A DNA stretch of 64,000 nucleotides, taken from assembly GCF_020382885.2 (NCBI RefSeq), contig NC_058504.1:12597019-12661018 (forward strand), given 5' to 3'. Position numbers and translations under genes: made by a program. Positions within the stretch are counted from its first letter, which is position 1. Each line of letters begins with the position of its first letter. This document shows positions 5,617-31,651 of the stretch, one piece after another. The notes under the pieces are model-generated. The model was not told the DNA's origin and did not search any database. It worked only from the letters and a program-made list of their open reading frames with translations. The DNA comes from Scatophagus argus (Eukaryota; Chordata; Actinopteri; Scatophagidae).

Positions 5617-8001
5617 CTCAAAGGACTCATCTGGTTGATCAAACACTTCTGCAAAGTCACTTGGACTTTTCCTCAGAGTCTGCTCAGCTGGCAGCGTGTT
5701 GTCATTGTAAGACGTCACAAACTTAAAGTCACTGGTTCTTGATCCTGTCGTCAGATATGCGTCATAATTGTAAGCGCTGCGCAAAGTTCCTGTGCCGTCA
5801 ACATCTGCGTAATTAGGAGGGAGATAAGCGCCGGGGATGGCGACTGCTCCATCAAACAACAGTCTGGGCTTTCTCCTGCGACAAAACCTCACACCCAGGA
5901 TGATGATGATGAACGTCAGAAAAAACGTGGACACACACACCAGAGCGATAATAAGGTAAGACGTCAGCTTGGAATTCTTCTCCTCGTAAGAAATATCCTT
6001 CAGTTCGGGCACCTCAGCCAAGTTGTCAGAAATCAGTAAATACATGGAACAGGTGGCAGACAGAGAGGGCTGGCCGTTATCTTTCACTGCCACAATAAGG
6101 TTCTGTTTCATGCTGTCAGATTCAGAAATGTCCCGCTGTGTCCTGATCTCTCCGCTGTGGACACCAATACTGAAAAGTCCCGGATCAGTGGACTTCACGA
6201 TATGATAAGACAGCCAGGCGTTCTGGCCGGAGTCCGCGTCCACCGCGATCACTTTGGACACCACAGAGCCTCCGTGGGCAGATTTGGGGACCAGCTCCGT
6301 CATGAACGAGTTGCCCTCCGGGGCGGGGTACAGGATCTGAGGACAGTTGTCATTCACATCCGATATGAACACACTGACGGTCACGTTGCTGCTCAGCGGA
6401 GGAGAACCGTTGTCTCGGGCCATCACGTGGACTTTAAAACTCCTCAACTGCTCATAATCAAACGACCTCACAGCGTGGATCACCCCCGTGTCTCCGTTCA
6501 CAGACACGTAGGAGGACACCGGGGCACCGTTCACCTCACCGGCCAACAGAGAATAAATCACTGTACCGTTCTGTCTCCAGTCGGGGTCTCGAGCACTCAC
6601 GGAACATAAAGTGGAGCCAGGTTTGTTATTTTCACTCGCATATGCGCTGTACGACTGCTCCTCAAACACAGGTGGGTTGTCGTTGATGTCTGCTACAGAT
6701 AACTGAACAGTTTTAGACGAGGACAGAGGTGGAGAGCCCTCGTCGGTGGCACTGATTGTAATGTTGTAATCAGACACCACTTCACGGTCCAGCTGTCCTG
6801 TGCTCACCAGAGAATAATAGTTTTTAATGGAAGGAACCAACTTAAAAGGGACGTTTTGCTGAATGGAGCAGCGGACCTGTCCGTTGGTCTCAGAGTCTCT
6901 GTCCTGCACGTTAATGATGCCCACCTCTGTACCAGGTGACACGTTCTCAGGTATGGGGTCAGTCAGTGATTTCAGATAGATCACGGGAGCGTTGTCATTC
7001 ACATCAGTAACATCTATTATAACTTTAGCATACGAAGTTAACCCCAAACCATCTTTAGCTTGCACTCTCATCTCAAAGGAACTCCTTTCCTCAAAGTCAA
7101 TCACTCCTGTTACTCTAATTACTCCCGTTTTAGGATCAATAGAGAAAACATTTACGTCGTCATCAGACACGTGGCCAAAATGATACGTCACATCTCCATT
7201 CACTCCTTCATCTGCGTCTGTAGCACTAACATGAATCACTGTGGTATCTGCAGGAGAGTTTTCTGGCAGACTGGCCTTATAAACGGCCTGGCTGAACACT
7301 GGGGCGTTATCATTAGCATCCAGCACAGTAACGTGTATGACCACAGTACCTGATCTCTGAGGAGAGCCGCCATCTAAAGCTGTCAGGAGCAAATTAAGCT
7401 CTTTTTGTTTCTCTCGATCCAGTGTATTTTCCAGTACGAGTTCAACCTTGTTGCTGTCAACAGCGAGAATAAAGTTGTCGTTCTTCTGAAGGTTGTACCT
7501 TTGAACCGCATTTTGACCAATATCTGCGTCATGGGCCTCCTCGATGGAGAAGCGATTACCCTTATCTGCCGACTCACTTATTTCCATTTCAATCAAACTT
7601 TCTCTGAATTTTGGCGAGTTGTCGTTGACATCTTGAATATGAAGACTTAATCGATGAAGCTCCAATGGATTTTCTAACACCAGATCTACCTTCACAACAC
7701 ACGACGGTTTCTTGCCGCACAGGCTTTCTCTGTCTGTTCTCTCCGATGTGATCAAATCCCCCGTTCTCAGATTAATGTCACAGTAACGCTTCTGACTTCC
7801 CTCAAAATCAACACGGGCCTTTCGGGAGGACAAAGTCCTCACATCAAGACCGAGATCTTTGGCGATATTTCCAATGACAGAATCGCGTTTCATCTCTTCT
7901 GGGACAGAATAACTCAGGTCTCCATTAACGAGGTGCAGCGCTACAATAAAGAAAGCGAAGCAAACGCTCATACGGAGCGCTGAGAATCCTTTGTCTCCCA
8001 T
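5617..8001 (-). CDS. pcdhg: Gamma-type protocadherin variable exon (exon 'C')
   Basis: 795 codons from the ATG at 7999-8001 ([10 protein letters not shown], good Kozak context AGGATGG) to the donor GAG|GTAGGC at 5615-5617. Signal peptide 1-27. Approximate domains: EC1 28-132, EC2 133-236, EC3 237-341, EC4 342-446, EC5 447-556, EC6 557-675, membrane helix 681-703, cytoplasmic 704-795. The calcium-linker motifs DVNDNSP (124-130), DANDNAP, DVNDNAP, DINDNPP and DVNDNCP are all present. The tail carries [18 protein letters not shown], related to the gamma-type motif before the constant region. Its final residues ([12 protein letters not shown]) are unique among the exons. Its 5' 275 codons and promoter are identical to the exon at 17442-19826, because it supplied that part of the duplication chimera. 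After splicing it would join the gamma constant exons outside the window. Confidence 0.96.
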
Positions 8002-8180
8002 CCTGACACAAAAAGGCTCCTCAGCTTGTACGACTTATCTTTCACAGGACGAAAACAACAAATGCTCAGCAAAAAATACTTGATAATCCAACACTTATCA
8101 GAACTGTGCACGATGAAATAGCTCGGAAATGGAACCGTTTCTCTGTAAAATCTGCAACTGAGATCTGTGTAGTACGAACA

Positions 8181-8240
8181 GCAGTGGGTGGAGTGGAGAA
8201 TGTCCGTTTTCTGTCAGCCAACAGCGACACCAAGAGCCCT
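8181..8240 (-). promoter_or_regulatory. Variable-exon promoter: CSE plus CCACCC box
   Basis: The minus strand reads TTGGTGTCGCTGTTGGCTGA (core 8223-8226), a strong match to the family CSE. The CCACCC box is at 8186-8191, 37 bp closer to the gene. It is 185-225 bp upstream of the ATG at 8001. Confidence 0.85.
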
Positions 8241-8614
8241 CCTTTTACTTTTTCACATGAACTTGAAAAAACATTCAGAACAAACTCTCAAATCACACAG
8301 GAAAATAATTTCTTCGAGTTAAAACGAACTGTCCATGTATCTTGCATGATTTGGAGTAGTCCTTAAAAACACTCGCTGTCTATTAATTGTATTGCCTCAG
8401 GTGTAAAGAAGTTCAGCCCAGCACAGCTGAGCCCAATGAAATTTGGTTTAAGATTACGTTACTTCAGCTTTCTGAAAGTTGCAAAAGGAAAGGGGGCACA
8501 AAGAGACAGTATATGTGAACGAAAATCTTATCCTACAGTTATTAAAATGCAACCAGGATCAATGAAGAGAAAGATATCTCTCGATGAGAATGTGCCACAG
8601 TGCCAGAAGAGCAT

Positions 8615-8635
8615 TTCAGCACCATGGACAGATAA
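8615..8635 (+). promoter_or_regulatory. NRSE/RE1-like site
   Basis: TTCAGCACCATGGACAGATA: both half-sites are intact, 16 of 21 consensus positions over 21 bp. It is 614 bp upstream of the ATG at 8001, in the same orientation as the other sites. Confidence 0.75.
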
Positions 8636-9493
8636 ACCTTGAGATTTCAAAGGACTGACGGGACAAAAACACTGACCTCTGTCTTGTTGTCGAAGCTTTC
8701 TTATGCACAGTAATGACAGCTACAGTTTCACAAAAAAATAATGACAAACTCTTTGACCTAAAAATTTACCCACCTGCGTTAGAACGCTGAGCTGGGTTTG
8801 CCCAAGTCATGATTAATGACACATGTTGATGATGGAAAAAAGTGGCTTACTGGTAACAATGGAAAAGTTAAAATCATTATGAAATACATCGAAAAAGGCT
8901 TGACTAAAGCAAAGTAATTCTGTGTTAACTTCTTGCATCACAACATTTGGTTGATAAAAATGTTATTGCAACTATGTACTTGGCCACGGGGCAAAGGAAT
9001 TGTGCTGGCCAAGATCAGCTGGAGCAAGTCTTTCAATGCGAATGACGTTGCATTTTAAAAATCTTATCAGCTCGACTTAAAAATAAAATTCTGAAATACC
9101 ACCTTTATGAAAAAAACAGTGTTATATTTACGGATTGTATTTGTCAAGGAATCGTTTACAAACTTAGTCGTTAAGAGAAAAATCCCCCAAAAAATTCAAC
9201 CAAAGGAGCAAATATGTTGACTAGAAGTTGAAGTATAAACAAGACAGTAATGAGTCGTGCAATTTTTAAAGAACTTGTCAATGACAAGATGTGACGATTA
9301 ACTGAACAAATCCACAAAGGAATAAGCGACAATATCAAGGGGTTAGTCTTGTTCTAATAATTCACTTGAACAACAACGGCAACGTGAAAATTTCGAAAAC
9401 ACCAACGCAAGCTGCTGCCAAACATGAAAAAAACGATTCATTTAACAAACAAAAATGCATTGTGGCCAGTGACTTTATTTAAAGGGATCCTAC
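8636..9493. other. Spacer without recognisable gene
   Basis: AT-rich spacer between the NRSE of exon C and the donor of the next exon. Nothing recognisable was seen. It is duplicated at 20461-21318. Confidence 0.55.
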
Positions 9494-11878
9494 CTCTGCA
9501 GACGCCTCTAAATCTTCAAAAGGATCAGCAAAGTCACTTGGACTTTTCCTCAGAGTCTGCTCAGCAGGCAGCGTGTTGTCATTGTAAGACGTCACAAACT
9601 TAAAGTCACTGGTTCTTGATCCTGTCGTCAGATATGCGTCATAATTGTAAGCGCTGCGCAAAGTTCCTGTGCCGTCAACATCTGCGTAATTAGGAGGGAG
9701 ATAAGCGCCGGGGATGGCGACTGCTCCATCAAACAACAGTCTGGGCTTTCTCCTGCGACAAAACCTCACACCCAGGAAGATGATGATGAACGTCAGAAAA
9801 AACGTGGACACACACACCAGAGCGATAATAAGGTAAGACGTCAGTTTGGAATTCTTCTCCTCGTAAGAAATATCCTTCAGTTCGGGCACCTCAGCCAAGT
9901 TGTCAGAAATCAGTAAATACATGGAACAGGTGGCAGACAGAGAGGGCTGGCCGTTATCTTTCACTGCCACAATAAGGTTCTGTTTCATGCTGTCAGATTC
10001 AGAAATGTCCCGCTGTGTCCTGATCTCTCCGCTGTGGACACCAATAGTGAAAAGTCCCGGATCAGTGGACTTCACGATATGATAAGACAGCCAGGCGTTC
10101 TGGCCGGAGTCCGCGTCCACCGCGATCACTTTGGACACCACAGAGCCTCCGTGGGCAGCTTTGGGGACCAGCTCCGTCATGAACGAGTTGCCCTCCGGGG
10201 CGGGGTACAGGATCTGAGGACAGTTGTCATTCACATCCGATATGAACACACTGACGGTCACGTTGCTGCTCAGCGGAGGAGAACCGTTGTCTCGGGCCAT
10301 CACGTGGACTTTAAAACTCCTCAACTGCTCATAATCAAACGACCTCACAGCGTGGATCACCCCCGTGTCTCCGTTCACAGACACGTAGGAGGACACCGGG
10401 ACACCGTTCACCTCACCGGCCAACAGAGAATAAATCACTGTACCGTTCTGTCTCCAGTCGGGGTCTCGAGCACTCACGGAACATAAAGTGGAGCCTGGTT
10501 TGTTATTTTCACTCACATATGCGCTGTACGACTGCTCCTCAAACACAGGTGGGTTGTCGTTGATGTCTGCTACAGATAACTGAACAGTTTTAGACGAGGA
10601 CAGAGGTGGAGAGCCCTCGTCGGTGGCACTGATTGTAATGTTGTAATCAGACACCACTTCACGGTCCAGCTGTCCTGTGCTCACCAGAGAATAATAGTTT
10701 TTAATAGAAGGAACCAACTTAAAAGGGACGTTTTGCTGAATGGAGCAGCGGACCTGTCCGTTGGTCTCAGAGTCTCTGTCCTGCACGTTAATGATGCCCA
10801 CCTCTGTACCAGGTGACACGTTCTCAGGTATGGGGTCAGTCAGTGATTTCAGATAGATCATGGGAGCGTTGTCATTCACATCAGTAACATCTATTATAAC
10901 TTTGGCATACGAAGTTAACCCCAAACCATCTTTAGCTTGCACTCTCATCTCAAAGGAACTCCTTTCCTCAAAGTCAATCACTCCTGTTACTCTAATTACT
11001 CCCGTTTTTGGATCAATAGAGAAAACATTTACGTCGTCATCAGACACGTGGCCAAAATGATACGTCACATCTCCATTCACTCCTTCATCTGCGTCTGTAG
11101 CACTAACATGAATCACTGTGGTATCTACAGGAGAGTTTTCTGGCAGACTGGCCTTATAAACGGCCTGGCTGAACACTGGGGCGTTATCATTAGCATCCAG
11201 CACAGTAACGTGTATGACCACAGTACCTGATCTCTGAGGAGAGCCGCCATCTAAAGCTGTCAGGAGCAAATTAAGCTCTTTCTGTTTCTCTCGATCCAGT
11301 TTCTGTTCCAGTACGAGTTCAACCTTGTTGCTGTCAACAGCGAGAATAAAGTTGTCGTTCTTCTGAAGGTTGTACCGTTGAACCGCATTTTGGCCAATAT
11401 CTGCGTCATGGGCCTCCTCGATGGAGAAGCGATTACCTTTTTCAGCTGACTCCCTTATTTCCATTTCAATCAAACTTTCTCTGAATTTTGGCGAGTTGTC
11501 GTTGACATCTTGAATATGAAGACTTAGTCGATGAAGCTCCAATGGATTTTCTAACACCAGATCTACCTTCACAACACACGACGGTTTCTTGCCGCACAGG
11601 CTTTCTCTGTCTGTTCTCTCCGATGTGATCAAATCCCCCGTTCTCAGATTAATGTCACAGTAACGCTTCTGAGCTCCCTCAAAATCAACACGGGCCTTTC
11701 GGGAGGACAAAGTCCTCACATCAAGACCGAGGTCTTTGGCGATATTTCCAATGACAGAGTCGCGTTTCATCTCTTCTGGGACAGAATAACTCAGGTCTCC
11801 ATTAACGAGGTGCAGCCTTACAATGAAGAAAACGAAGCAAACGCTCGTACGGAGCGCTGAGAATCCTTTGTCTCCCAT
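9494..11878 (-). CDS. pcdhg: Gamma-type protocadherin variable exon (exon 'D', copy 1)
   Basis: 795 codons, from the ATG at 11876-11878 ([18 protein letters not shown]) to the donor GAG|GTAGGA at 9492-9494. An in-frame ATG six codons upstream (MFFCVR) has a weaker context. Domain order and linker motifs are as in the exon at 5617-8001. Distinguishing residues: FRESL after the EC1-EC2 linker, EQKLDRE in EC2, Met in DNAPMI at the EC3-EC4 linker, NGVPVSS in EC5, and Phe in the helix (IIIFLGV). The cytoplasmic end is [12 protein letters not shown]. The protein is identical to that of the exon at 21319-23703, its duplicate. Expected role: homophilic recognition isoform at neuronal contacts. Confidence 0.96.
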
Positions 11879-12050
11879 CCTGACACAAAAAAACACTTCA
11901 GCTCGTACAACTTATCCTCCCAGGAAGAAAAAATAGAATCTCAGCAAAACATTCAATAATCCGACATTTGTCGATAGCGCATACGGTGAAATAGGTTGTA
12001 AATTGAACCGTGTTTCCGGAAAATCTGCAACTGATATTGATGTAGAACAG

Positions 12051-12110
12051 CCGTGGGTGGAGTGGTGAGTGTCTGTTTTCTCTCAGCCAACAGCGACACC
12101 ATGAGCCCGA
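12051..12110 (-). promoter_or_regulatory. Variable-exon promoter: CSE plus CCACCC box
   Basis: The minus strand carries CATGGTGTCGCTGTTGGCTG (core 12092-12095), with the CCACCC box at 12055-12060. Spacing is 37 bp, as in exon C. It is 180-230 bp upstream of the ATG at 11878. Confidence 0.85.
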
Positions 12111-12677
12111 GTTTAAATTTTCACCAAAAGTGTAAAAAAAATAATAATAATAATAACATTCCTCGATAAATCGCAAACTACAACATAAGTCGCTCATGTT
12201 CAAATGGACGTTGCATTTTCCTTCGATGTTTTGTTGTCTTTAAGTACACATGCCATCTATTCATAGTAACTTACTCAGGTGTGGTCAAGTTCGGTCAAAC
12301 ACAGCTGAGCCCAGTTAGATATGTATTGAAACAAGCTACTTCATCCTCGTAGACGTTCTAACAGGGAGTAGGCTACAGACAGACAAATACTACAACTAGA
12401 ACCACAGAAAGACAAGACGAGGTACAATTTGATTACAACACTGTAACATTCCCAAAGTGTATGACTGAAATGGAACATAACATGCAGTAATAAAGAGCTG
12501 TGGTTGAGCGCCGCATATTAAGGCAATGAGCTGGAGCCTTCAGCTATATCACAACAATCCAAATGCATAAACACATATCAATGGAATTATCAACTTATTA
12601 TCGTAATTATTAATAATATGAAAACAGTATGGATGAGGACAGAGACATATGTCGTGTCGGTTGTGCCTGAGGAGTGT

Positions 12678-12698
12678 TTCAACAAACTGGACAGAAAC
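12678..12698 (+). promoter_or_regulatory. Decayed NRSE/RE1-like site
   Basis: TTCAACAAACTGGACAGAAA keeps the GGACAG right half and the TTCA start but has lost the CAGCACC core (13 of 21 over 21 bp). Its flanks (gcctgaggagtg before it) resemble those of the intact site at 16577, so it is probably a degenerated orthologue rather than chance. Confidence 0.45.
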
Positions 12699-13521
12699 AC
12701 CTTCCTCATTCGGTCGTTAAAATAAGACAAAAAAATAAACGCTGTGTTGGTCTTTTAGTCTGTATTCTAAGACTTAAATTACAGGAGTTAAAGACAGATT
12801 CATGAATGTTAACACTGACTTAATATTAGACCTAAAACGTTAACCACACATGGTGAGGCGGACTCAGAAAACGGCGCTGTGTTTGAACCAGCTGAGGATA
12901 ATTCAGGATTGAAAGAATTAAAAAGTGAAAGTGAAAAACATATGAGAGACTGGACAAAACGCTTAATTGAGAACTAATTCTGTGGTAACTTTATTCACGC
13001 CAAGAATAATTTAACAAAACGTTTTACGACTATTAAACCATATCCTATGAGGAACATGTTTTCTGCTGGCAAATATCAATTCGAAGCAAGATCCTGGTAA
13101 CTCATGATTCTGTTATATTCTCATCGAATTTATCCCACTGCTGAAAATCCACAAATAGCAACTTAAGAGAAGAAACAAAATGAGCTGAAAATTAAGACCA
13201 GAAAGTATATTGTCAAAAAAATCATATTTAGACGGTATCTGTCAGTAACAAGACCGGAAAAGTATCAACCACGACATGGGGGAAAAGAGCGAAAGATGAT
13301 AGGAATCAGCGAAACACAAACACAAAGTAAAAAGTACCATAATGATGGAAGGCAAACGGCACGTAAAAATTCAGGGACGTCGCTTATAAATACAGAAATC
13401 ACTAGAGAAAATAATATTCATATAATTTCCACATGCTCAAAACACAGTCACGTGCTACAGGCAAACAGACAAGGAAAAGAAAATCAAAAAAGCATTCAAA
13501 AACAATTTAAACGAATCCTAC
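12699..13521. other. Spacer without recognisable gene
   Basis: AT-rich spacer, duplicated at 24524-25346. An open plus-strand frame at 13296-13631 runs antisense into the next exon and has no family features. Nothing else was seen. Confidence 0.5.
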
Positions 13522-15906
13522 CTCTGCAGACGCCTCTAAATCGTCAAAAGGGTCAACAAAGTCACTTGGACTTTTCCTCAGAGTCTGCTCAGCAGGCAGC
13601 GTGCTGTCATTGTAAGACGTCACAAATTTAAAGTCACTGGTTCTTGATCCTGTCGTCAGATATGCGTCATAATTGTACGCACTGCGCAAAGTTCCTGTGC
13701 CGTCAACATCTGCGTAATTAGGAGGGAGATAAGCGCCGGGGATGGCGACTGCTCCATCAAACAACAGTCTGGGCTTTCTCCTGCGACAAAACCTCACACC
13801 GAGGATGATGATGATGAACGTCAGAAAAAACGTGGACACACACACCAGAGCGATAATAAGGTAAGACGTCAGTTTGGAATTCTTCTCCTCGTAAGAAATA
13901 TCCTTCAGTTCGGGCACCTCAGCCAAGTTGTCAGAAATCAGTAAATACATGGAACAGGTGGCAGACAGAGAGGGCTGGCCGTTATCTTTCACTGCCACAA
14001 TAAGGTTCTGTTTCATGCTGTCAGATTCAGAAATGTCCCGCTGTGTCCTGATCTCTCCGCTGTGGACACCAATAGTGAAAAGTCCCGGATCAGTGGACTT
14101 CACTATATGATAGGACAGCCAGGCGTTCTGGCCGGAGTCCGCGTCCACCGCGATCACTTTGGACACCACAGAGCCTCCGTGGGCAGCTTTGGGGACCAGT
14201 TCCGTCATGAACGAGTTGCCCTCCGGGGCGGGGTACAGGATCTGAGGACAGTTGTCATTCACATCCGATATGAACACACTGACGGTCACGTTGCTGCTCA
14301 GCGGAGGAGAACCGTTGTCTCGGGCCATCACGTGGACTTTAAAACTCCTCAACTGCTCATAATCAAACGACCTCACAGCGTGGATCACCCCCGTGTCTCC
14401 GTTCACAGACACGTAGGAGGACACCGGGGCACCGTTCACCTCACCGGCTAACAGAGAATAAATCACTGTACCGTTCTGTCTCCAGTCGGGGTCTCGAGCA
14501 CTCACGGAACATAAAGTGGAGCCTGGTTTGTTATTTTCACTCGCATATGCGCTGTACGACTGCTCCTCAAACACAGGTGGGTTGTCGTTGATGTCTGCTA
14601 CAGATAACTGAACAGTTTTAGACGAGGACAGAGGTGGAGAGCCCTCGTCAGTGGCACTGATTGTAATGTTGTAATCAGACACCACTTCACGGTCCAGCTG
14701 TCCTGTGCTCACCAGAGAATAATAGTTTTTAATGGAAGGAACCAACTTAAAAGGGACGTTTTGCTGAATGGAGCAGCGGACCTGTCCGTTGGTCTCAGAG
14801 TCTCTGTCCTGTACGTTAATGATGCCCACCTCTGTACCAGGTGACACGTTCTCAGGTATGGGGTCAGTCAGTGATTTCAGATAGATCATGGGAGCGTTGT
14901 CATTCACATCAGTAACATCTATTATAACTTTGGCATACGAAGTTAACCCCAAACCATCTTTAGCCTTCACTCTCATCTCAAAGGAACTCCTTTCCTCAAA
15001 GTCAATCACTCCTGTTACTCTAATTACTCCCGTTTTAGGATCAATAGAGAAAACATTTACGTCGTCATCAGACACGTGGCCAAAATGATACGTCACATCT
15101 CCATTCACTCCTTCATCTGCGTCTGTAGCACTAACATGAATCACTGTGGTATCTACAGGAGAGTTTTCTGGCAGACTGGCCTTATAAACGGCCTGGCTGA
15201 ACACTGGGGCGTTATCATTAGCATCCAGCACAGTAACGTGTATGACCACAGTACCTGATCTCTGAGGAGAGCCGCCATCTAAAGCTGTCAGGAGCAAATT
15301 AAGCTCTTTCTGTTTCTCTCGATCCAGTTTATTTTCCAGTACGAGTTCAACCTTGTTGCTGTCAACAGCGAGAATAAAGTTGTCGTTCTTCTGAAGGTTG
15401 TACCTTTGAACCGCATTTTGACCAATATCTGCGTCATGGGCCTCCTCGATGGAGAAGCGATTACCCTTTTCTGCCGACTCCCTTATTTCCATTTCAATCA
15501 AGTTGTCGTTGAATTGCGGCGAGTTGTCGTTGACATCTTGAATATGAAGACTTAATCGATGAAGCTCCAATGGATTTTCTAACACCAGATCTACCTTCAC
15601 AACACACGACGGTTTCTTGCCGCACAGGCTTTCTCTGTCTGTTCTCTCCGATGTGATCAAATCCCCCGTTCTCAGATTAATGTCACAGTAACGCTTCTGA
15701 GCTCCCTCAAAATCAACACGGGCCTTTCGGGAGGACAAAGTCCTCACATCAAGACCGAGATCTTTGGCGATATTTCCAATGACAGAGTCGCGTTTCATCT
15801 CTTCTGGGACAGAATAACTCAGGTCTCCATTAACGAGGTGCAGCCTTACAATAAAGAAAACGAAGCAAAAGATCGGACGGAGCGCTGAGAATCCTTTGTC
15901 TCCCAT
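13522..15906 (-). CDS. pcdhg: Gamma-type protocadherin variable exon (exon 'E', copy 1)
   Basis: 795 codons from the ATG at 15904-15906 ([18 protein letters not shown]) to the donor GAG|GTAGGA at 13520-13522. Signal peptide, six EC repeats, helix and tail are as in the paralogues. Private residues: QFNDNL just after the EC1-EC2 linker (others KFRESL), ENKLDRE in EC2, VKAKDG in EC3, Ser in TSYNDSTL, and the tail end [12 protein letters not shown]. Identical in protein to the duplicate exon at 25347-27731. Its promoter and 5' UTR align closely with those of exon C, which suggests C and E are older tandem duplicates. Confidence 0.96.
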
Positions 15907-16086
15907 CCTGACACAAAAAGGCTCCTCAGCTCATACAATTTATGTTTCCCAAGACGGAAAAAAACAGAAGCCCGGCAAAAGTACTTGATAATCCAACACT
16001 TCTCAGAATTGTGCACGATGAAATAGCTCAGAAATGGAACCGTTTCTCTATAAAACTCTGAAATTGAGACCGAGGTAGTACGAACA

Positions 16087-16140
16087 GCAGTGGGTGGAGA
16101 ATGTCCGTTTTCTGTCAGCCAACAGCGACACCATGAGCCC
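16087..16140 (-). promoter_or_regulatory. Variable-exon promoter: CSE plus CCACCC box
   Basis: The minus strand carries CATGGTGTCGCTGTTGGCTG (core 16124-16127) with the CCACCC box at 16092-16097. Spacing is 32 bp, about 5 bp shorter than in the C and D promoters, owing to a small deletion after the box. It lies 185-230 bp upstream of the ATG. Confidence 0.85.
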
Positions 16141-16576
16141 ACTTTTTAAACTTTCACATACAAATGTAAAAACCATGTTCAAAAGAAACATGCTTCACAA
16201 ATGCCCCAAAATGTCAAAGCACATCCCTCACATTCACATTAACTGTGCATGTGTCCTATTTTCATTTTCATTTATTTATTTGTTTTTAACTGTTCTTAAA
16301 ATACATTCGAAATCTCGTCATTGTAATTGGTTAAGGTGTGGTCAAGTTCAGCCCAGCACAGGTGAGCCTAATGATATTTGGATTCTGTTACTTTATCTTT
16401 CTAAAAGTTACAAAAGGGAGACGGTTACAGATCAACAACATCAATGGCATTTTTATTATTAGTATGAATCGTATAAGTATTACTCGTATTATTATTCTGA
16501 TTAAAAATCTGAATAGCATGAATGAGGATAAGGAGACATCTGTCTTTGCATCTGTACCTGAGTGACTGAGGAGCAT

Positions 16577-16597
16577 TTCAGCACCATGGACAGATAC
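16577..16597 (+). promoter_or_regulatory. NRSE/RE1-like site
   Basis: TTCAGCACCATGGACAGATA: 17 of 21 consensus positions over 21 bp, both half-sites intact, 671 bp upstream of the ATG at 15906. Confidence 0.75.
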
Positions 16598-17441
16598 AAC
16601 ATCAGACATGACAGGATTGACAGGACAGAAACAGAACGCTGTTTCATTCTCTGAGTTTTCTCATGCACAGCTAACGACAGAGACAGTTTAACAAAATAAT
16701 AATAATAATGATAATAATACTGACATACTCAGAAATCTAAACTGCAGTCCACCTAGTTAGAACTCGGACCTATGCCTGTATAACCGACGATTAGCGACAC
16801 ATGCTGATGACGGAAAAAGTAGACTGCTGCGAACACTGGAAAAGTTTAATACGTCGAAGAAGGCTCGATTTTAGCAACGTAAGTCTGTAACTACCTCTTT
16901 CATAACTATATATTTTGTTGATAAAAATTGTGACTAACTACACACGTGGCCATAAGGCCCAGGTTGTCTGCTGGAAAAGATCATAGTGAAGAAATTCTTT
17001 CATTTTTGTTTTGTATGCAGCTAATACCTTCCATATGCTAAAATAGCAACTTCATGAAAAAAAACTGTCATACATAATTTATTTTGTCAAGGAATCACTG
17101 ACAAATTTCATCTTTCTGACATAAAACCAGGGGGGAGGAAACACAAAACCTGCACGTCTTGACAAGAAGTTGAATTAAGAAACACATGTATCACTAAAAG
17201 GAGGTGAAATGAGCCTCACTGTTTTGAAAGAAAATGCAAAATATGCAAACATTCACTGAGGAAATCTGCGAAGGAAAAGGCGACCAAAAGAGGAGGTCTC
17301 TCTTGTGCAAACAGTTCACTTTAACAACCGCAAAAAGTGAAAATTTTGAAAACACCAAAACAAGCTGCAACCAAACATAAGGACTCGATAAACAAGTCAA
17401 AAAAGCATCGTGATCAGTGAAGCACGTTAAAGGGATCCTAC
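16598..17441. other. Spacer without recognisable gene
   Basis: AT-rich spacer with a short ATA/AAT microrepeat near 16694-16720. It is duplicated at 28423-29266. No gene or promoter core was seen. Confidence 0.5.
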
Positions 17442-20005: not shown

Positions 20006-20065
20006 GCAGTGGGTGGAGTGGAGAATGTCCGTTTTCTGTCAGCCAACAGCGACACCAAGAGCCCT
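20006..20065 (-). promoter_or_regulatory. Variable-exon promoter: CSE plus CCACCC box
   Basis: Duplicate of the promoter at 8181-8240, with the CGCT core at 20048-20051 and the CCACCC box at 20011-20016. It drives the chimeric exon F. Confidence 0.85.
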
Positions 20066-20439
20066 CCTTTTACTTTTTCACATGAACTTGAAAAAACATT
20101 CAGAACAAACTCTCAAATCACACAGGAAAATAATTTCTTCGAGTTAAAACGAACTGTCCATGTATCTTGCATGATTTGGAGTAGTCCTTAAAAACACTCG
20201 CTGTCTATTAATTGTATTGCCTCAGGTGTAAAGAAGTTCAGCCCAGCACAGCTGAGCCCAATGAAATTTGGTTTAAGATTACGTTACTTCAGCTTTCTGA
20301 AAGTTGCAAAAGGAAAGGGGGCACAAAGAGACAGTATATGTGAACGAAAATCTTATCCTACAGTTATTAAAATGCAACCAGGATCAATGAAGAGAAAGAT
20401 ATCTCTCGATGAGAATGTGCCACAGTGCCAGAAGAGCAT

Positions 20440-20460
20440 TTCAGCACCATGGACAGATAA
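20440..20460 (+). promoter_or_regulatory. NRSE/RE1-like site
   Basis: Exact duplicate of the site at 8615-8635, both half-sites intact, 614 bp upstream of the exon F ATG. Confidence 0.75.
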
Positions 20461-21318
20461 ACCTTGAGATTTCAAAGGACTGACGGGACAAAAACACTGA
20501 CCTCTGTCTTGTTGTCGAAGCTTTCTTATGCACAGTAATGACAGCTACAGTTTCACAAAAAAATAATGACAAACTCTTTGACCTAAAAATTTACCCACCT
20601 GCGTTAGAACGCTGAGCTGGGTTTGCCCAAGTCATGATTAATGACACATGTTGATGATGGAAAAAAGTGGCTTACTGGTAACAATGGAAAAGTTAAAATC
20701 ATTATGAAATACATCGAAAAAGGCTTGACTAAAGCAAAGTAATTCTGTGTTAACTTCTTGCATCACAACATTTGGTTGATAAAAATGTTATTGCAACTAT
20801 GTACTTGGCCACGGGGCAAAGGAATTGTGCTGGCCAAGATCAGCTGGAGCAAGTCTTTCAATGCGAATGACGTTGCATTTTAAAAATCTTATCAGCTCGA
20901 CTTAAAAATAAAATTCTGAAATACCACCTTTATGAAAAAAACAGTGTTATATTTACGGATTGTATTTGTCAAGGAATCGTTTACAAACTTAGTCGTTAAG
21001 AGAAAAATCCCCCAAAAAATTCAACCAAAGGAGCAAATATGTTGACTAGAAGTTGAAGTATAAACAAGACAGTAATGAGTCGTGCAATTTTTAAAGAACT
21101 TGTCAATGACAAGATGTGACGATTAACTGAACAAATCCACAAAGGAATAAGCGACAATATCAAGGGGTTAGTCTTGTTCTAATAATTCACTTGAACAACA
21201 ACGGCAACGTGAAAATTTCGAAAACACCAACGCAAGCTGCTGCCAAACATGAAAAAAACGATTCATTTAACAAACAAAAATGCATTGTGGCCAGTGACTT
21301 TATTTAAAGGGATCCTAC
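20461..21318. other. Spacer, duplicate of 8636-9493
   Basis: No gene seen. Identical to the copy-1 spacer wherever I compared them. Confidence 0.55.
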
Positions 21319-23703
21319 CTCTGCAGACGCCTCTAAATCTTCAAAAGGATCAGCAAAGTCACTTGGACTTTTCCTCAGAGTCTGCTCAGCAGGCAGCGTG
21401 TTGTCATTGTAAGACGTCACAAACTTAAAGTCACTGGTTCTTGATCCTGTCGTCAGATATGCGTCATAATTGTAAGCGCTGCGCAAAGTTCCTGTGCCGT
21501 CAACATCTGCGTAATTAGGAGGGAGATAAGCGCCGGGGATGGCGACTGCTCCATCAAACAACAGTCTGGGCTTTCTCCTGCGACAAAACCTCACACCCAG
21601 GAAGATGATGATGAACGTCAGAAAAAACGTGGACACACACACCAGAGCGATAATAAGGTAAGACGTCAGTTTGGAATTCTTCTCCTCGTAAGAAATATCC
21701 TTCAGTTCGGGCACCTCAGCCAAGTTGTCAGAAATCAGTAAATACATGGAACAGGTGGCAGACAGAGAGGGCTGGCCGTTATCTTTCACTGCCACAATAA
21801 GGTTCTGTTTCATGCTGTCAGATTCAGAAATGTCCCGCTGTGTCCTGATCTCTCCGCTGTGGACACCAATAGTGAAAAGTCCCGGATCAGTGGACTTCAC
21901 GATATGATAAGACAGCCAGGCGTTCTGGCCGGAGTCCGCGTCCACCGCGATCACTTTGGACACCACAGAGCCTCCGTGGGCAGCTTTGGGGACCAGCTCC
22001 GTCATGAACGAGTTGCCCTCCGGGGCGGGGTACAGGATCTGAGGACAGTTGTCATTCACATCCGATATGAACACACTGACGGTCACGTTGCTGCTCAGCG
22101 GAGGAGAACCGTTGTCTCGGGCCATCACGTGGACTTTAAAACTCCTCAACTGCTCATAATCAAACGACCTCACAGCGTGGATCACCCCCGTGTCTCCGTT
22201 CACAGACACGTAGGAGGACACCGGGACACCGTTCACCTCACCGGCCAACAGAGAATAAATCACTGTACCGTTCTGTCTCCAGTCGGGGTCTCGAGCACTC
22301 ACGGAACATAAAGTGGAGCCTGGTTTGTTATTTTCACTCACATATGCGCTGTACGACTGCTCCTCAAACACAGGTGGGTTGTCGTTGATGTCTGCTACAG
22401 ATAACTGAACAGTTTTAGACGAGGACAGAGGTGGAGAGCCCTCGTCGGTGGCACTGATTGTAATGTTGTAATCAGACACCACTTCACGGTCCAGCTGTCC
22501 TGTGCTCACCAGAGAATAATAGTTTTTAATAGAAGGAACCAACTTAAAAGGGACGTTTTGCTGAATGGAGCAGCGGACCTGTCCGTTGGTCTCAGAGTCT
22601 CTGTCCTGCACGTTAATGATGCCCACCTCTGTACCAGGTGACACGTTCTCAGGTATGGGGTCAGTCAGTGATTTCAGATAGATCATGGGAGCGTTGTCAT
22701 TCACATCAGTAACATCTATTATAACTTTGGCATACGAAGTTAACCCCAAACCATCTTTAGCTTGCACTCTCATCTCAAAGGAACTCCTTTCCTCAAAGTC
22801 AATCACTCCTGTTACTCTAATTACTCCCGTTTTTGGATCAATAGAGAAAACATTTACGTCGTCATCAGACACGTGGCCAAAATGATACGTCACATCTCCA
22901 TTCACTCCTTCATCTGCGTCTGTAGCACTAACATGAATCACTGTGGTATCTACAGGAGAGTTTTCTGGCAGACTGGCCTTATAAACGGCCTGGCTGAACA
23001 CTGGGGCGTTATCATTAGCATCCAGCACAGTAACGTGTATGACCACAGTACCTGATCTCTGAGGAGAGCCGCCATCTAAAGCTGTCAGGAGCAAATTAAG
23101 CTCTTTCTGTTTCTCTCGATCCAGTTTCTGTTCCAGTACGAGTTCAACCTTGTTGCTGTCAACAGCGAGAATAAAGTTGTCGTTCTTCTGAAGGTTGTAC
23201 CGTTGAACCGCATTTTGGCCAATATCTGCGTCATGGGCCTCCTCGATGGAGAAGCGATTACCTTTTTCAGCTGACTCCCTTATTTCCATTTCAATCAAAC
23301 TTTCTCTGAATTTTGGCGAGTTGTCGTTGACATCTTGAATATGAAGACTTAGTCGATGAAGCTCCAATGGATTTTCTAACACCAGATCTACCTTCACAAC
23401 ACACGACGGTTTCTTGCCGCACAGGCTTTCTCTGTCTGTTCTCTCCGATGTGATCAAATCCCCCGTTCTCAGATTAATGTCACAGTAACGCTTCTGAGCT
23501 CCCTCAAAATCAACACGGGCCTTTCGGGAGGACAAAGTCCTCACATCAAGACCGAGGTCTTTGGCGATATTTCCAATGACAGAGTCGCGTTTCATCTCTT
23601 CTGGGACAGAATAACTCAGGTCTCCATTAACGAGGTGCAGCCTTACAATGAAGAAAACGAAGCAAACGCTCGTACGGAGCGCTGAGAATCCTTTGTCTCC
23701 CAT
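21319..23703 (-). CDS. pcdhg: Gamma-type protocadherin variable exon (exon 'G', duplicate of D)
   Basis: 795 codons, ATG at 23701-23703, donor GAG|GTAGGA at 21317-21319. The translation is identical to the exon at 9494-11878, including EQKLDRE, DNAPMI, NGVPVSS and IIIFLGV. The shared promoter and decayed NRSE are also copied. Because the protein is the same, it adds no new recognition identity but adds a second promoter for the D isoform. It could be a true recent paralogue or an assembly duplicate. Confidence 0.94.
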
Positions 23704-23875
23704 CCTGACACAAAAAAACACTTCAGCTCGTACAACTTATCCTCCCAGGAAGAAAAAATAGAATCTCAGCAAAACATTCAATAATCCGACATTTGTCGAT
23801 AGCGCATACGGTGAAATAGGTTGTAAATTGAACCGTGTTTCCGGAAAATCTGCAACTGATATTGATGTAGAACAG

Positions 23876-23935
23876 CCGTGGGTGGAGTGGTGAGTGTCTG
23901 TTTTCTCTCAGCCAACAGCGACACCATGAGCCCGA
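23876..23935 (-). promoter_or_regulatory. Variable-exon promoter: CSE plus CCACCC box
   Basis: Duplicate of 12051-12110, with the CGCT core at 23917-23920 and the CCACCC box at 23880-23885. Confidence 0.85.
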
Positions 23936-24502
23936 GTTTAAATTTTCACCAAAAGTGTAAAAAAAATAATAATAATAATAACATTCCTCGATAAATCGCA
24001 AACTACAACATAAGTCGCTCATGTTCAAATGGACGTTGCATTTTCCTTCGATGTTTTGTTGTCTTTAAGTACACATGCCATCTATTCATAGTAACTTACT
24101 CAGGTGTGGTCAAGTTCGGTCAAACACAGCTGAGCCCAGTTAGATATGTATTGAAACAAGCTACTTCATCCTCGTAGACGTTCTAACAGGGAGTAGGCTA
24201 CAGACAGACAAATACTACAACTAGAACCACAGAAAGACAAGACGAGGTACAATTTGATTACAACACTGTAACATTCCCAAAGTGTATGACTGAAATGGAA
24301 CATAACATGCAGTAATAAAGAGCTGTGGTTGAGCGCCGCATATTAAGGCAATGAGCTGGAGCCTTCAGCTATATCACAACAATCCAAATGCATAAACACA
24401 TATCAATGGAATTATCAACTTATTATCGTAATTATTAATAATATGAAAACAGTATGGATGAGGACAGAGACATATGTCGTGTCGGTTGTGCCTGAGGAGT
24501 GT

Positions 24503-24523
24503 TTCAACAAACTGGACAGAAAC
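24503..24523 (+). promoter_or_regulatory. Decayed NRSE/RE1-like site
   Basis: Duplicate of 12678-12698. The right half GGACAG is kept and the CAGCACC core is lost. Confidence 0.45.
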
Positions 24524-25346
24524 ACCTTCCTCATTCGGTCGTTAAAATAAGACAAAAAAATAAACGCTGTGTTGGTCTTTTAGTCTGTATTCTAAGACTT
24601 AAATTACAGGAGTTAAAGACAGATTCATGAATGTTAACACTGACTTAATATTAGACCTAAAACGTTAACCACACATGGTGAGGCGGACTCAGAAAACGGC
24701 GCTGTGTTTGAACCAGCTGAGGATAATTCAGGATTGAAAGAATTAAAAAGTGAAAGTGAAAAACATATGAGAGACTGGACAAAACGCTTAATTGAGAACT
24801 AATTCTGTGGTAACTTTATTCACGCCAAGAATAATTTAACAAAACGTTTTACGACTATTAAACCATATCCTATGAGGAACATGTTTTCTGCTGGCAAATA
24901 TCAATTCGAAGCAAGATCCTGGTAACTCATGATTCTGTTATATTCTCATCGAATTTATCCCACTGCTGAAAATCCACAAATAGCAACTTAAGAGAAGAAA
25001 CAAAATGAGCTGAAAATTAAGACCAGAAAGTATATTGTCAAAAAAATCATATTTAGACGGTATCTGTCAGTAACAAGACCGGAAAAGTATCAACCACGAC
25101 ATGGGGGAAAAGAGCGAAAGATGATAGGAATCAGCGAAACACAAACACAAAGTAAAAAGTACCATAATGATGGAAGGCAAACGGCACGTAAAAATTCAGG
25201 GACGTCGCTTATAAATACAGAAATCACTAGAGAAAATAATATTCATATAATTTCCACATGCTCAAAACACAGTCACGTGCTACAGGCAAACAGACAAGGA
25301 AAAGAAAATCAAAAAAGCATTCAAAAACAATTTAAACGAATCCTAC
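24524..25346. other. Spacer, duplicate of 12699-13521
   Basis: No gene or promoter core seen. Confidence 0.5.
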
Positions 25347-27731
25347 CTCTGCAGACGCCTCTAAATCGTCAAAAGGGTCAACAAAGTCACTTGGACTTTT
25401 CCTCAGAGTCTGCTCAGCAGGCAGCGTGCTGTCATTGTAAGACGTCACAAATTTAAAGTCACTGGTTCTTGATCCTGTCGTCAGATATGCGTCATAATTG
25501 TACGCACTGCGCAAAGTTCCTGTGCCGTCAACATCTGCGTAATTAGGAGGGAGATAAGCGCCGGGGATGGCGACTGCTCCATCAAACAACAGTCTGGGCT
25601 TTCTCCTGCGACAAAACCTCACACCGAGGATGATGATGATGAACGTCAGAAAAAACGTGGACACACACACCAGAGCGATAATAAGGTAAGACGTCAGTTT
25701 GGAATTCTTCTCCTCGTAAGAAATATCCTTCAGTTCGGGCACCTCAGCCAAGTTGTCAGAAATCAGTAAATACATGGAACAGGTGGCAGACAGAGAGGGC
25801 TGGCCGTTATCTTTCACTGCCACAATAAGGTTCTGTTTCATGCTGTCAGATTCAGAAATGTCCCGCTGTGTCCTGATCTCTCCGCTGTGGACACCAATAG
25901 TGAAAAGTCCCGGATCAGTGGACTTCACTATATGATAGGACAGCCAGGCGTTCTGGCCGGAGTCCGCGTCCACCGCGATCACTTTGGACACCACAGAGCC
26001 TCCGTGGGCAGCTTTGGGGACCAGTTCCGTCATGAACGAGTTGCCCTCCGGGGCGGGGTACAGGATCTGAGGACAGTTGTCATTCACATCCGATATGAAC
26101 ACACTGACGGTCACGTTGCTGCTCAGCGGAGGAGAACCGTTGTCTCGGGCCATCACGTGGACTTTAAAACTCCTCAACTGCTCATAATCAAACGACCTCA
26201 CAGCGTGGATCACCCCCGTGTCTCCGTTCACAGACACGTAGGAGGACACCGGGGCACCGTTCACCTCACCGGCTAACAGAGAATAAATCACTGTACCGTT
26301 CTGTCTCCAGTCGGGGTCTCGAGCACTCACGGAACATAAAGTGGAGCCTGGTTTGTTATTTTCACTCGCATATGCGCTGTACGACTGCTCCTCAAACACA
26401 GGTGGGTTGTCGTTGATGTCTGCTACAGATAACTGAACAGTTTTAGACGAGGACAGAGGTGGAGAGCCCTCGTCAGTGGCACTGATTGTAATGTTGTAAT
26501 CAGACACCACTTCACGGTCCAGCTGTCCTGTGCTCACCAGAGAATAATAGTTTTTAATGGAAGGAACCAACTTAAAAGGGACGTTTTGCTGAATGGAGCA
26601 GCGGACCTGTCCGTTGGTCTCAGAGTCTCTGTCCTGTACGTTAATGATGCCCACCTCTGTACCAGGTGACACGTTCTCAGGTATGGGGTCAGTCAGTGAT
26701 TTCAGATAGATCATGGGAGCGTTGTCATTCACATCAGTAACATCTATTATAACTTTGGCATACGAAGTTAACCCCAAACCATCTTTAGCCTTCACTCTCA
26801 TCTCAAAGGAACTCCTTTCCTCAAAGTCAATCACTCCTGTTACTCTAATTACTCCCGTTTTAGGATCAATAGAGAAAACATTTACGTCGTCATCAGACAC
26901 GTGGCCAAAATGATACGTCACATCTCCATTCACTCCTTCATCTGCGTCTGTAGCACTAACATGAATCACTGTGGTATCTACAGGAGAGTTTTCTGGCAGA
27001 CTGGCCTTATAAACGGCCTGGCTGAACACTGGGGCGTTATCATTAGCATCCAGCACAGTAACGTGTATGACCACAGTACCTGATCTCTGAGGAGAGCCGC
27101 CATCTAAAGCTGTCAGGAGCAAATTAAGCTCTTTCTGTTTCTCTCGATCCAGTTTATTTTCCAGTACGAGTTCAACCTTGTTGCTGTCAACAGCGAGAAT
27201 AAAGTTGTCGTTCTTCTGAAGGTTGTACCTTTGAACCGCATTTTGACCAATATCTGCGTCATGGGCCTCCTCGATGGAGAAGCGATTACCCTTTTCTGCC
27301 GACTCCCTTATTTCCATTTCAATCAAGTTGTCGTTGAATTGCGGCGAGTTGTCGTTGACATCTTGAATATGAAGACTTAATCGATGAAGCTCCAATGGAT
27401 TTTCTAACACCAGATCTACCTTCACAACACACGACGGTTTCTTGCCGCACAGGCTTTCTCTGTCTGTTCTCTCCGATGTGATCAAATCCCCCGTTCTCAG
27501 ATTAATGTCACAGTAACGCTTCTGAGCTCCCTCAAAATCAACACGGGCCTTTCGGGAGGACAAAGTCCTCACATCAAGACCGAGATCTTTGGCGATATTT
27601 CCAATGACAGAGTCGCGTTTCATCTCTTCTGGGACAGAATAACTCAGGTCTCCATTAACGAGGTGCAGCCTTACAATAAAGAAAACGAAGCAAAAGATCG
27701 GACGGAGCGCTGAGAATCCTTTGTCTCCCAT
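25347..27731 (-). CDS. pcdhg: Gamma-type protocadherin variable exon (exon 'H', duplicate of E)
   Basis: 795 codons, ATG at 27729-27731, donor GAG|GTAGGA at 25345-25347. The protein is identical to the exon at 13522-15906 ([31 protein letters not shown]). Six EC repeats, membrane helix and gamma-type tail are intact. The promoter and NRSE are duplicated with it. It makes the same isoform from a second promoter. Confidence 0.94.
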
Positions 27732-27911
27732 CCTGACACAAAAAGGCTCCTCAGCTCATACAATTTATGTTTCCCAAGACGGAAAAAAACAGAAGCCCGG
27801 CAAAAGTACTTGATAATCCAACACTTCTCAGAATTGTGCACGATGAAATAGCTCAGAAATGGAACCGTTTCTCTATAAAACTCTGAAATTGAGACCGAGG
27901 TAGTACGAACA

Positions 27912-27965
27912 GCAGTGGGTGGAGAATGTCCGTTTTCTGTCAGCCAACAGCGACACCATGAGCCC
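27912..27965 (-). promoter_or_regulatory. Variable-exon promoter: CSE plus CCACCC box
   Basis: Duplicate of 16087-16140, with the CGCT core at 27949-27952 and the CCACCC box at 27917-27922. Confidence 0.85.
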
Positions 27966-28401
27966 ACTTTTTAAACTTTCACATACAAATGTAAAAACCA
28001 TGTTCAAAAGAAACATGCTTCACAAATGCCCCAAAATGTCAAAGCACATCCCTCACATTCACATTAACTGTGCATGTGTCCTATTTTCATTTTCATTTAT
28101 TTATTTGTTTTTAACTGTTCTTAAAATACATTCGAAATCTCGTCATTGTAATTGGTTAAGGTGTGGTCAAGTTCAGCCCAGCACAGGTGAGCCTAATGAT
28201 ATTTGGATTCTGTTACTTTATCTTTCTAAAAGTTACAAAAGGGAGACGGTTACAGATCAACAACATCAATGGCATTTTTATTATTAGTATGAATCGTATA
28301 AGTATTACTCGTATTATTATTCTGATTAAAAATCTGAATAGCATGAATGAGGATAAGGAGACATCTGTCTTTGCATCTGTACCTGAGTGACTGAGGAGCA
28401 T

Positions 28402-28422
28402 TTCAGCACCATGGACAGATAC
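28402..28422 (+). promoter_or_regulatory. NRSE/RE1-like site
   Basis: Duplicate of 16577-16597, both half-sites intact, 671 bp upstream of the ATG at 27731. Confidence 0.75.
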
Positions 28423-29266
28423 AACATCAGACATGACAGGATTGACAGGACAGAAACAGAACGCTGTTTCATTCTCTGAGTTTTCTCATGCACAGCTAAC
28501 GACAGAGACAGTTTAACAAAATAATAATAATAATGATAATAATACTGACATACTCAGAAATCTAAACTGCAGTCCACCTAGTTAGAACTCGGACCTATGC
28601 CTGTATAACCGACGATTAGCGACACATGCTGATGACGGAAAAAGTAGACTGCTGCGAACACTGGAAAAGTTTAATACGTCGAAGAAGGCTCGATTTTAGC
28701 AACGTAAGTCTGTAACTACCTCTTTCATAACTATATATTTTGTTGATAAAAATTGTGACTAACTACACACGTGGCCATAAGGCCCAGGTTGTCTGCTGGA
28801 AAAGATCATAGTGAAGAAATTCTTTCATTTTTGTTTTGTATGCAGCTAATACCTTCCATATGCTAAAATAGCAACTTCATGAAAAAAAACTGTCATACAT
28901 AATTTATTTTGTCAAGGAATCACTGACAAATTTCATCTTTCTGACATAAAACCAGGGGGGAGGAAACACAAAACCTGCACGTCTTGACAAGAAGTTGAAT
29001 TAAGAAACACATGTATCACTAAAAGGAGGTGAAATGAGCCTCACTGTTTTGAAAGAAAATGCAAAATATGCAAACATTCACTGAGGAAATCTGCGAAGGA
29101 AAAGGCGACCAAAAGAGGAGGTCTCTCTTGTGCAAACAGTTCACTTTAACAACCGCAAAAAGTGAAAATTTTGAAAACACCAAAACAAGCTGCAACCAAA
29201 CATAAGGACTCGATAAACAAGTCAAAAAAGCATCGTGATCAGTGAAGCACGTTAAAGGGATCCTAC
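28423..29266. other. Spacer, duplicate of 16598-17441
   Basis: No gene seen. It has the same ATA/AAT microrepeat as copy 1. Confidence 0.5.
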
Positions 29267-31651
29267 CTCTGCAGACGCCTCTAAATCTTCAAAAGGATCA
29301 GCAAAGTCACTTGGACTTTTCCTCAGAGTCTGCTCAGCAGGCAGCGTGCTGTCATTGTAAGACGTCACAAACTTAAAGTCACTGGTTCTTGATCCTGTCG
29401 TCAGATATGCGTCATAATTGTACGCACTGCGCAAAGTTCCTGTGCCGTCAACATCTGCGTAATTAGGAGGGAGATAAGCGCCGGGGATGGCGACTGCTCC
29501 ATCAAACAACAGTCTGGGCTTTCTCCTGCGACAAAACCTCACACCCAGGATGATGATGATGAACGTCAGAAAAAACGTGGACACACACACCAGAGCGATA
29601 ATAAGGTAAGACGTCAGTTTGGAATTCTTCTCCTCGTAAGAAATATCCTTCAGTTCGGGCACCTCAGCCAAGTTGTCAGAAATCAGTAAATACATGGAAC
29701 AGGTGGCAGACAGAGAGGGCTGGCCGTTATCTTTCACCGCCACAATAAGGTTCTGTTTCATGCTGTCAGATTCAGAAATGTCCCGCTGAGTCCTGATCTC
29801 TCCGCTGTGGACACCAATAGTGAAAAGTCCCGGATCAGTGGACTTCACGATATGATAGGACAGCCAGGCGTTCTGGCCGGAGTCCGCGTCCACCGCGATC
29901 ACTTTGGACACCACAGAGCCTCCGTGGGCAGCTTTGGGGACCAGCTCGGTCATGAACGAGTTGCCCTCCGGGGCGGGGTACAGGATCTGAGGACAGTTGT
30001 CATTCACATCCGATATGAACACACTGACGGTCACGTTGCTGCTCAGCGGAGGAGAACCGTTGTCTCGGGCCATCACGTGGACTTTAAAACTCCTCAACTG
30101 CTCATAATCAAACGACCTCACAGCGTGGATCACCCCCGTGTCTCCGTTCACAGACACGTAGGAGGACACCGGGGCACCGTTCACCTCACCGGCCAACAGA
30201 GAATAAATCACTGTACCGTTCTGTCTCCAGTCGGGGTCTCGAGCACTCACGGAACATAAAGTGGAGCCAGGTTTGTTATTTTCACTCACATATGCGCTGT
30301 ACGACTGCTCCTCAAACACAGGTGGGTTGTCGTTGATGTCTGCTACAGATAACTGAACAGTTTTAGACGAGGACAGAGGTGGAGAGCCCTCGTCGGTGGC
30401 ACTGATTGTAATGTTGTAATCAGACACCACTTCACGGTCCAGCTGTCCTGTGCTCACCAGAGAATAATAGTTTTTAATAGAAGGAACCAACTTAAAAGGC
30501 ACGTTTTGCTGAATGGAGCAGCGGACCTGTCCGTTGGTCTCAGAGTCTCTGTCCTGCACGTTAATGATGCCCACCTCTGTACCAGGTGACACGTTCTCAG
30601 GTATGGGGTCAGTCAGTGATTTCAGATAGATCACGGGAGCGTTGTCATTCACATCAGTAACATCTATTATAACATTAGCATACGAAGTTAACCCTAAACC
30701 ATCTTTAGCTTCCACTTTAATTTCAAAGGAACTCCTTTCCTCAAAGTCAATCACTCGTGTTACTCTAATTTCTCCCGTTTTTGGATCAATAGAGAAAAAA
30801 TTAACTTCTTCATCAGACACGTGGCCAAAGTCATACGTCACAGCTCCATTAATTCCTTCGTCTGCATCAGTCGCACTGACAGTGACCACTACAGTATCTG
30901 CAGGAGAGTTTTCTGGCAGACTGGCCTTATAAACGGCCTGGCTGAACACTGGGGCGTTATCATTAGCATCCAGCACAGTAACGTGTATGACCACAGTACC
31001 TGATCTCTGAGGAGAGCCGCCATCTAAAGCTGTCAGGAGCAAATTAAGCTCTTTCTGTTTCTCTCGATCCAGTTTCTGTTCCAGTACGAGTTCAACCTTG
31101 TTGCTGTCAACAGCGAGAATAAAGTTGTCGTTCTTCTGAAGGTTGTACCTTTGAACCGCATTTTGACCAATATCTGCGTCATGGGCCTCCTCGATGGAGA
31201 AGCGATTACCCTTTTCAGCTGACTCGCTTATTTCCATTTCAATCAAATTTTTTTTGAATTTTGGCGAGTTGTCGTTGACATCTTGAATATGAAGACTTAA
31301 TCGATGAAGCTCCAATGGATTTTCTAACACCAGATCTACCTTCACAACGCACGACGGTTTCTTGCCGCACAGGCTTTCTCTGTCTGTTCTCTCCGATGTG
31401 ATCAAATCCCCCGTTCTCAGATTAATGTCACAGTAACGCTTCTGAGCTCCCTCAAAATCAACACGGGCCTTTCGGGAGGACAAAGTCCTCACATCAAGAC
31501 CGAGGTCTTTGGCGATATTTCCAATGACAGAATCGCGTTTCATCTCTTCTGGGACAGAATAACTCAGGTCTCCATTAACGAGGTGCAGCGCTACAATAAT
31601 GGAAGCGAAGATGACGATCGGACGGAGCGCTGAGAATCCTTTGTTTCCCAT
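29267..31651 (-). CDS. pcdhg: Gamma-type protocadherin variable exon, first of the gamma array (exon 'I')
   Basis: 795 codons from the ATG at 31649-31651 ([18 protein letters not shown]) to the donor GAG|GTAGGA at 29265-29267. In-frame ATGs 6 and 12 codons upstream (MFFSSK, MVRAVD) are possible but would bury the signal peptide. It is the 5'-most gamma exon, nearest the alpha constant exons. Private 5' features: KFKKNL after the EC1-EC2 linker, EQKLDRE, and [20 protein letters not shown] at the start of EC3, which recalls the exon at 1908-4298. From FGHVSD onward it is identical to chimera F. It is the likely donor of that exon's 3' half. Confidence 0.96.

Follow-up and report, generated by a model that had tools for sequence, protein, structure and literature searches.

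Clustered protocadherins supply the surface identity tags of nerve cells, and a cluster in which neighboring variable exons are repeated base for base raises the question of whether the extra copy belongs to the fish or to its assembly. We address this question in a stretch of 64,000 nucleotides from Scatophagus argus (hereafter the window; C12:12597019-12661018, where C12 is the window's contig in an assembly of 570.7 Mb and 48 contigs).

The Locus and Its Exons

Eight long frames (E1 to E8), all on the minus strand, span 1896-31687 of the window, and their order in the direction of transcription is E8, E7, E6, E5, E4, E3, E2, E1.

1896-4298, minus strand: E1, gamma variable exon, frame intact, inside copy 2 of a 31.8-kb duplication (unit B, below)
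5485-8001, minus strand: E2, gamma variable exon, the boundary exon common to both tandem duplications; the frame continues into the intron
9479-11878, minus strand: E3, gamma variable exon, identical to E6
13507-15906, minus strand: E4, gamma variable exon, identical to E7
17427-19826, minus strand: E5, hybrid variable exon (E2-type 5' part, E8-type 3' part)
21304-23703, minus strand: E6, second copy of E3
25332-27731, minus strand: E7, second copy of E4
29252-31651, minus strand: E8, the gamma variable exon that opens the array

Pfam scanning of six of the eight frames (E1-E5 and E8) found the Cadherin_2, Cadherin, and Cadherin_C_2 domains, and E6 and E7 carry the same domains because they are identical in sequence to E3 and E4. 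Among solved structures, Protocadherin gamma B4 (6e6b, E 1e-195) comes closest to E8. Judged by their sequence, E1-E8 have the predicted make-up of clustered protocadherin gamma variable exons, each a single exon encoding six cadherin repeats, a putative transmembrane segment, and a short cytoplasmic segment; the shared gamma constant exons to which they would be spliced lie outside the window. Further upstream in the direction of transcription lie the following alpha elements, the constant exons having been located by tblastn with a human alpha constant region:

43139-43441, minus strand: alpha constant exon 3 (aligned part; exon ends unmapped), E 4e-35
52107-52190, minus strand: alpha constant exon 2 (aligned part), E 8e-5
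55062-55112, minus strand: alpha constant exon 1 (aligned part), E 1e-4
58370-61084, minus strand: C-type (alpha-C2-like) variable exon adjoining the alpha constant exons, recognized by its Pfam domains, start codon unsettled

The C-type label of the last of these is based mainly on position; in PDB it matches Protocadherin-10 best (6vg4, E 3e-186), and Pcdhac2 (4zpm, three repeats, E 3e-114) tops the chains of that length. A (CCT)n tract at 58695-58741 corresponds to a polyglycine stretch in the cytoplasmic portion of this exon. Given the cadherin domains, the gamma B4 relative, and the upstream C-type alpha and alpha constant exons, the window is the alpha-gamma boundary, at which a teleost clustered protocadherin gamma array starts on the minus strand; the gamma variable exons follow in tandem after the alpha variable exon and three alpha constant exons. 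Genome-wide there are 111 Cadherin_2 matches, 93 of them within C12:12.41-12.84 Mb, and three others at C14:7.10-7.13 Mb are likely to mark a second protocadherin locus.

The 2.4-kb exons E2, E3, E4, and E8 are 96-97% identical in pairwise comparison, with similarity falling off beyond the exon limits, and exon 3' regions are homogenized within the array. In these four exons EC1 and EC2 are nearly identical, the signal peptide excepted, and differences are concentrated at alignment columns 131-146 and 192-193, and for E8 also at 254-326 (EC2, EC3). A conserved box with a CGCT end lies 217-225 bases 5' of the ATG in E2, E3, E4, E5, and E8, and resembles the CGCT core of protocadherin promoters. 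Elsewhere in the window, a 181-bp tandem unit (four copies, 95% match) occupies 34254-34975, which puts it between E8 and the alpha constant exons, and an interspersed repeat at 500-770 recurs on many chromosomes (40 of 986 first-look candidates were scored). Rfam and tRNA scans across the window found nothing.

An Exact Tandem Repeat

The first-pass annotation had described an exact tandem duplication of 11,825 bp, free of indels and substitutions at the places compared, and had proposed aligning 7180-19004 to 19005-30829 base by base. In that alignment, 0 of 11,825 positions differ. The exact match at this offset in fact spans 7160-19004, or 11,845 bases, the additional 20 being the junction bases common to E2, E5, and E8. 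We refer to this repeat as unit A:

7160-19004: unit A copy 1, 11,845 bp, 0 differences from 18985-30829
18985-30829: unit A copy 2, 0 differences from 7160-19004

Beyond the exact match, exon-level paralogy continues at 98% identity over 5651-7159 (27 mismatches) and at 95% over 19005-19820 (41 mismatches). Unit A exceeds ordinary paralogy, since an intergenic 1-kb probe (12300-13300) has two matches in the 570.7-Mb assembly, one in each unit A copy and both at 100%. Two whole exons are doubled (E3 as E6, E4 as E7), there is no indel between the copies, and every exon is open; under a simple tandem duplication, the exon order before the event would be E8-E4-E3-E2-E1.

Taken at face value, 0 differences in 11,845 bases set a 95% upper limit of 2.5e-4 per site, or approximately 12,700 generations at a mutation rate of 1e-8 per site per generation. 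The identity does not discriminate between the readings considered below, because a stretch spelled twice by an assembler is identical whether or not a real second copy exists. Microsatellites are uninformative for dating, as perfect repeats of 1-4-base units in unit A reach at most 15 bases.

The Hybrid Exon and Its Junction

18985-19004, minus strand: junction A, 20 bp common to E2, E5, and E8, inside EC3 at G-H-V-S-D

The three breakpoints of unit A had been placed at the same codons of three paralogous exons, and they are indeed in register. At 18985-19004 the sequence switches from E8 type at lower coordinates to E2 type at higher coordinates. The upstream sequence of E5, its EC1 and EC2, and its EC3 up to the middle are of E2 type, and the remainder of EC3 through the cytoplasmic segment is of E8 type; among the first 770 aligned columns, 13 residues separate E5 from E2 and 19 separate it from E8, compared with 32 between E2 and E8. 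The frame of E5 is intact, and a CGCT-type element is found at -225, as in E2. The repeat at the junction is an in-register hybrid, of the form expected from non-allelic homologous recombination (NAHR).

The place of the switch fits such an exchange less well. E2 and E8 have 59 mismatches in 2,299 aligned positions (5651-7949; 97% identity over 2.3 kb), and 28 of the 59 are packed into 182 bp (7062-7243) that include junction A. NAHR would be expected inside long, near-perfect identity, but the identical run that holds the switch is 20 bp long and lies in the most divergent E2/E8 stretch, while runs of 339, 191, 190, 173, 161, 135, and 119 bp occur elsewhere; runs of at least 100 bp hold 57% of the identical bases and runs of at most 21 bp hold 12%, the latter being the chance of such a site if identical bases were picked uniformly. 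Ranked for divergence of its surroundings, the junction is in the top 0.6-5%, depending on window size, the sizes having been chosen after the site was seen. A simple crossover in long homology would not favor this place, nor would a simple k-mer misjoin. The offset from the long tracts could stem from displacement by conversion or mismatch repair; the junction could also fit template switching, a misjoin of noisy overlapping reads, or a switch where a block of strong similarity ends.

Counted along the alignment, the switch adjoins the residue aligned with gamma B4 position 253, which is the same in E2 and E8. Position 253 belongs to an EC2:EC3 pair that is named as contributing to the specificity of gamma B (PMC5106212), and the location of the switch beside it may be regarded as a lead to the specificity of E5.

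An Abutting 31.8-kb Duplication

In a megablast self-comparison of 334 kb, three pairs of direct repeats were found (at least 2.6 kb, 97% identity): unit A, a second duplication of approximately 31.8 kb (unit B), and a 3.3-kb pair. Unit B adjoins unit A at E2, which is common to both.

C12:12539098-12570880: unit B copy 1
C12:12570880-12602600: unit B copy 2, its tail being window positions 1-5582

The 3.3-kb pair (C12:12507803-12511068 and 12514049-12517309, 97.6% identity) lies inside the gamma array and is an older tandem duplication.

The copies of unit B differ unevenly along their length. The first 15.9 kb (12539098-12555000) has one substitution and 15 indels, 14 of which are deletions in copy 2; the next 9 kb (12555000-12564000) has 59 substitutions (37 transitions, 22 transversions) and 32 indels, with 29 deletions in copy 2; and the last 6.8 kb (12564000-12570800) has 13 substitutions and one insertion, without the deletion pattern. 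Taken together, the first two stretches have 47 indels, and in 43 of these the bases are missing from copy 2 (two-sided binomial p 3e-9). Many indels with hardly any substitutions have the look of an uncorrected long-read consensus and not of DNA divergence; the middle stretch also holds allele-like substitutions. Unit A shows no such one-copy consensus errors, which in unit B affect part of copy 2.

Copy 2 of unit B has seven variable exons, of which E1 alone is intact; the six broken exons account for seven domain matches at C12:12570880-12597100, and one of them is the hybrid at the unit B junction (junction B), which is broken by a substitution. E1 is among the other 86 matches in C12:12.41-12.84 Mb, every one of which has an open frame of 792 aa or more. 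At junction B, which sits on the outer 3' boundary of the exon, the sequence to the left is the intergenic flank of E2 and that to the right is exon A; the E2 flank is unrelated to the flank of exon A, and only approximately 4 bp (ATCA) are shared. No run of N is present in the 334 kb examined.

Misassembly or Copy-Number Change

The assembly is unreliable directly beside unit A, and neither junction is where a homologous crossover is expected. Our preferred explanation, which we hold to be fairly probable, is that the exact tandem duplication and the hybrid E5 are products of a local misassembly. The near-identical exons E2, E3, E4, and E8 would have tangled the assembly, and a false join between look-alike exons would have let the assembly path run twice through the stretch from E2 through E3 and E4 to E8, and also through the abutting 31.8-kb stretch. 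That unit A is false, and that the assembler erred in this manner, is what we infer from the company in which unit A is found: a second tandem duplication that shares E2 with it, the consensus-error signature and the six of seven broken exons in copy 2 of that duplication, a junction B at the edge of exon homology, and a junction A in a short run amid divergent sequence. Zero differences in 11,845 bp is also what a sequence spelled twice would give, and there is precedent in the fugu draft, in which most protocadherin genes were misassembled, a failure that the authors blamed on near-identical exon 3' regions (PMC1852091). Several observations count against misassembly, however. Unit A has none of the faults of unit B, and the last 6.8 kb of unit B, with its intact E1, lacks the deletion pattern; a gap separating the copies is among the listed signs of false duplication (PMC9516828), yet the 334 kb has no N run; alleles placed in tandem should differ, and the unit A copies do not; a k-mer misjoin is a poor fit to the 20-bp run; a true recent duplication can also suffer asymmetric polishing; and genuine tandem duplication is frequent in protocadherin clusters.

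A real, very recent copy-number change, which is a known kind of event, is the main rival to misassembly; with its two mechanisms taken together, we regard it as possible, at less than even chances. The mechanism proposed in the first-pass annotation, unequal crossover between the paralogous exons E2 and E8 with E5 as the middle product and E3 and E4 doubled, is by itself unlikely, although not remote. The in-register hybrid stands as evidence for it, as do the 97% identity of E2 and E8, the intact E5 frame with its E2-like upstream element, the absence of indels between the copies, lineage-specific tandem duplication in teleost clusters (PMC1852091), and copy-number variants in human PCDH clusters (PMC4151104). 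The choice of site tells against it, the switch missing all of the long identical runs and falling in markedly divergent surroundings, as does the need for a second duplication that ends in E2 and whose copy 2 is demonstrably badly assembled. Alternatively, in a one-step complex rearrangement, a replication fork that template-switched backwards twice would yield both duplications and both hybrid exons. This would account for the short shared sequence at both junctions (20 bp and approximately 4 bp), neither of them lying in the long homology beside it, and for the abutment of the units at E2. A single event should leave copies of equal divergence, but past the first 16 kb the unit B copies differ by 72 substitutions (59 + 13) and the unit A copies by none; we therefore consider this rearrangement improbable, and its fuller form, two germline template switches in one event that leave two abutting duplications, two hybrid exons, and a live copy-number polymorphism, slightly more so. 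An older duplication held identical by gene conversion is the least credible reading, with very little probability: exon 3' regions are homogenized in the array, as in fugu (PMC1852091), but the similarity of E2, E3, E4, and E8 falls off outside the exons, and 11.8 kb of exon and intergenic DNA alike is identical. Gene conversion was rejected as the source of the unit A identity for this reason.

A recent event, a copy-number polymorphism, and an assembly duplication had initially been offered side by side. Because of the one-copy consensus faults of unit B, and because junction B lies outside a homologous exon, we place the assembly reading above the biological ones.

Consequences of Either Outcome

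If both duplications are false, ten gamma exons are spurious (seven in unit B and three in unit A), including two hybrids and six broken exons, and the error would carry over into fish protocadherin gene counts and birth-death analyses built on such assemblies; looking for junctions inside near-identical exons would be a simple screen for errors of this type. If the duplication is real, it would show a new recognition isoform at its origin, formed by an exchange within the specificity region and as yet without accumulated mutations. Under a real crossover, E5 could acquire a novel homophilic specificity from the switch in EC3; under template switching, the chimeric EC3 of E5 could likewise bring a new neuronal recognition specificity.

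Comparison With Known Systems

Titles and abstract openings in the open-licence literature yielded no report of this duplication, which is not a claim that it is absent from print. The Pcdh2gamma clusters of fugu and zebrafish have the same organization as the array described here: single 2.4-kb variable exons in tandem after an alpha array and three constant exons, exon 3' parts that are almost identical among neighbors, tandem duplication specific to a lineage, and a second locus elsewhere (here represented by the three matches on C14). Fugu gamma1-17 have a mean nucleotide identity of 72.7% in the EC1-EC2 part (Table 1 of PMC1852091), in contrast to the near-identity of EC1-EC2 among E2, E3, E4, and E8, and this sub-array therefore looks young.

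Whole variable exons together with their promoters are gained or lost in the 16.7-kb deletion of human PCDHA8-A10 and other PCDH variants, and gained in the engineered tandem duplication of mouse alpha2-alphac2 (PMC4151104), as they would be here. The human and mouse variants described there were observed in populations or were built, whereas the S. argus duplication is seen in a single assembly and has an in-frame hybrid exon. Heterotype and homotype false duplications resemble the S. argus locus in having tandem copies on one scaffold, with consensus errors in one copy, as in unit B (PMC9516828). Unlike the false duplications listed in that source, the copies here have no gap between them, and unit A is free of errors and of allelic difference.
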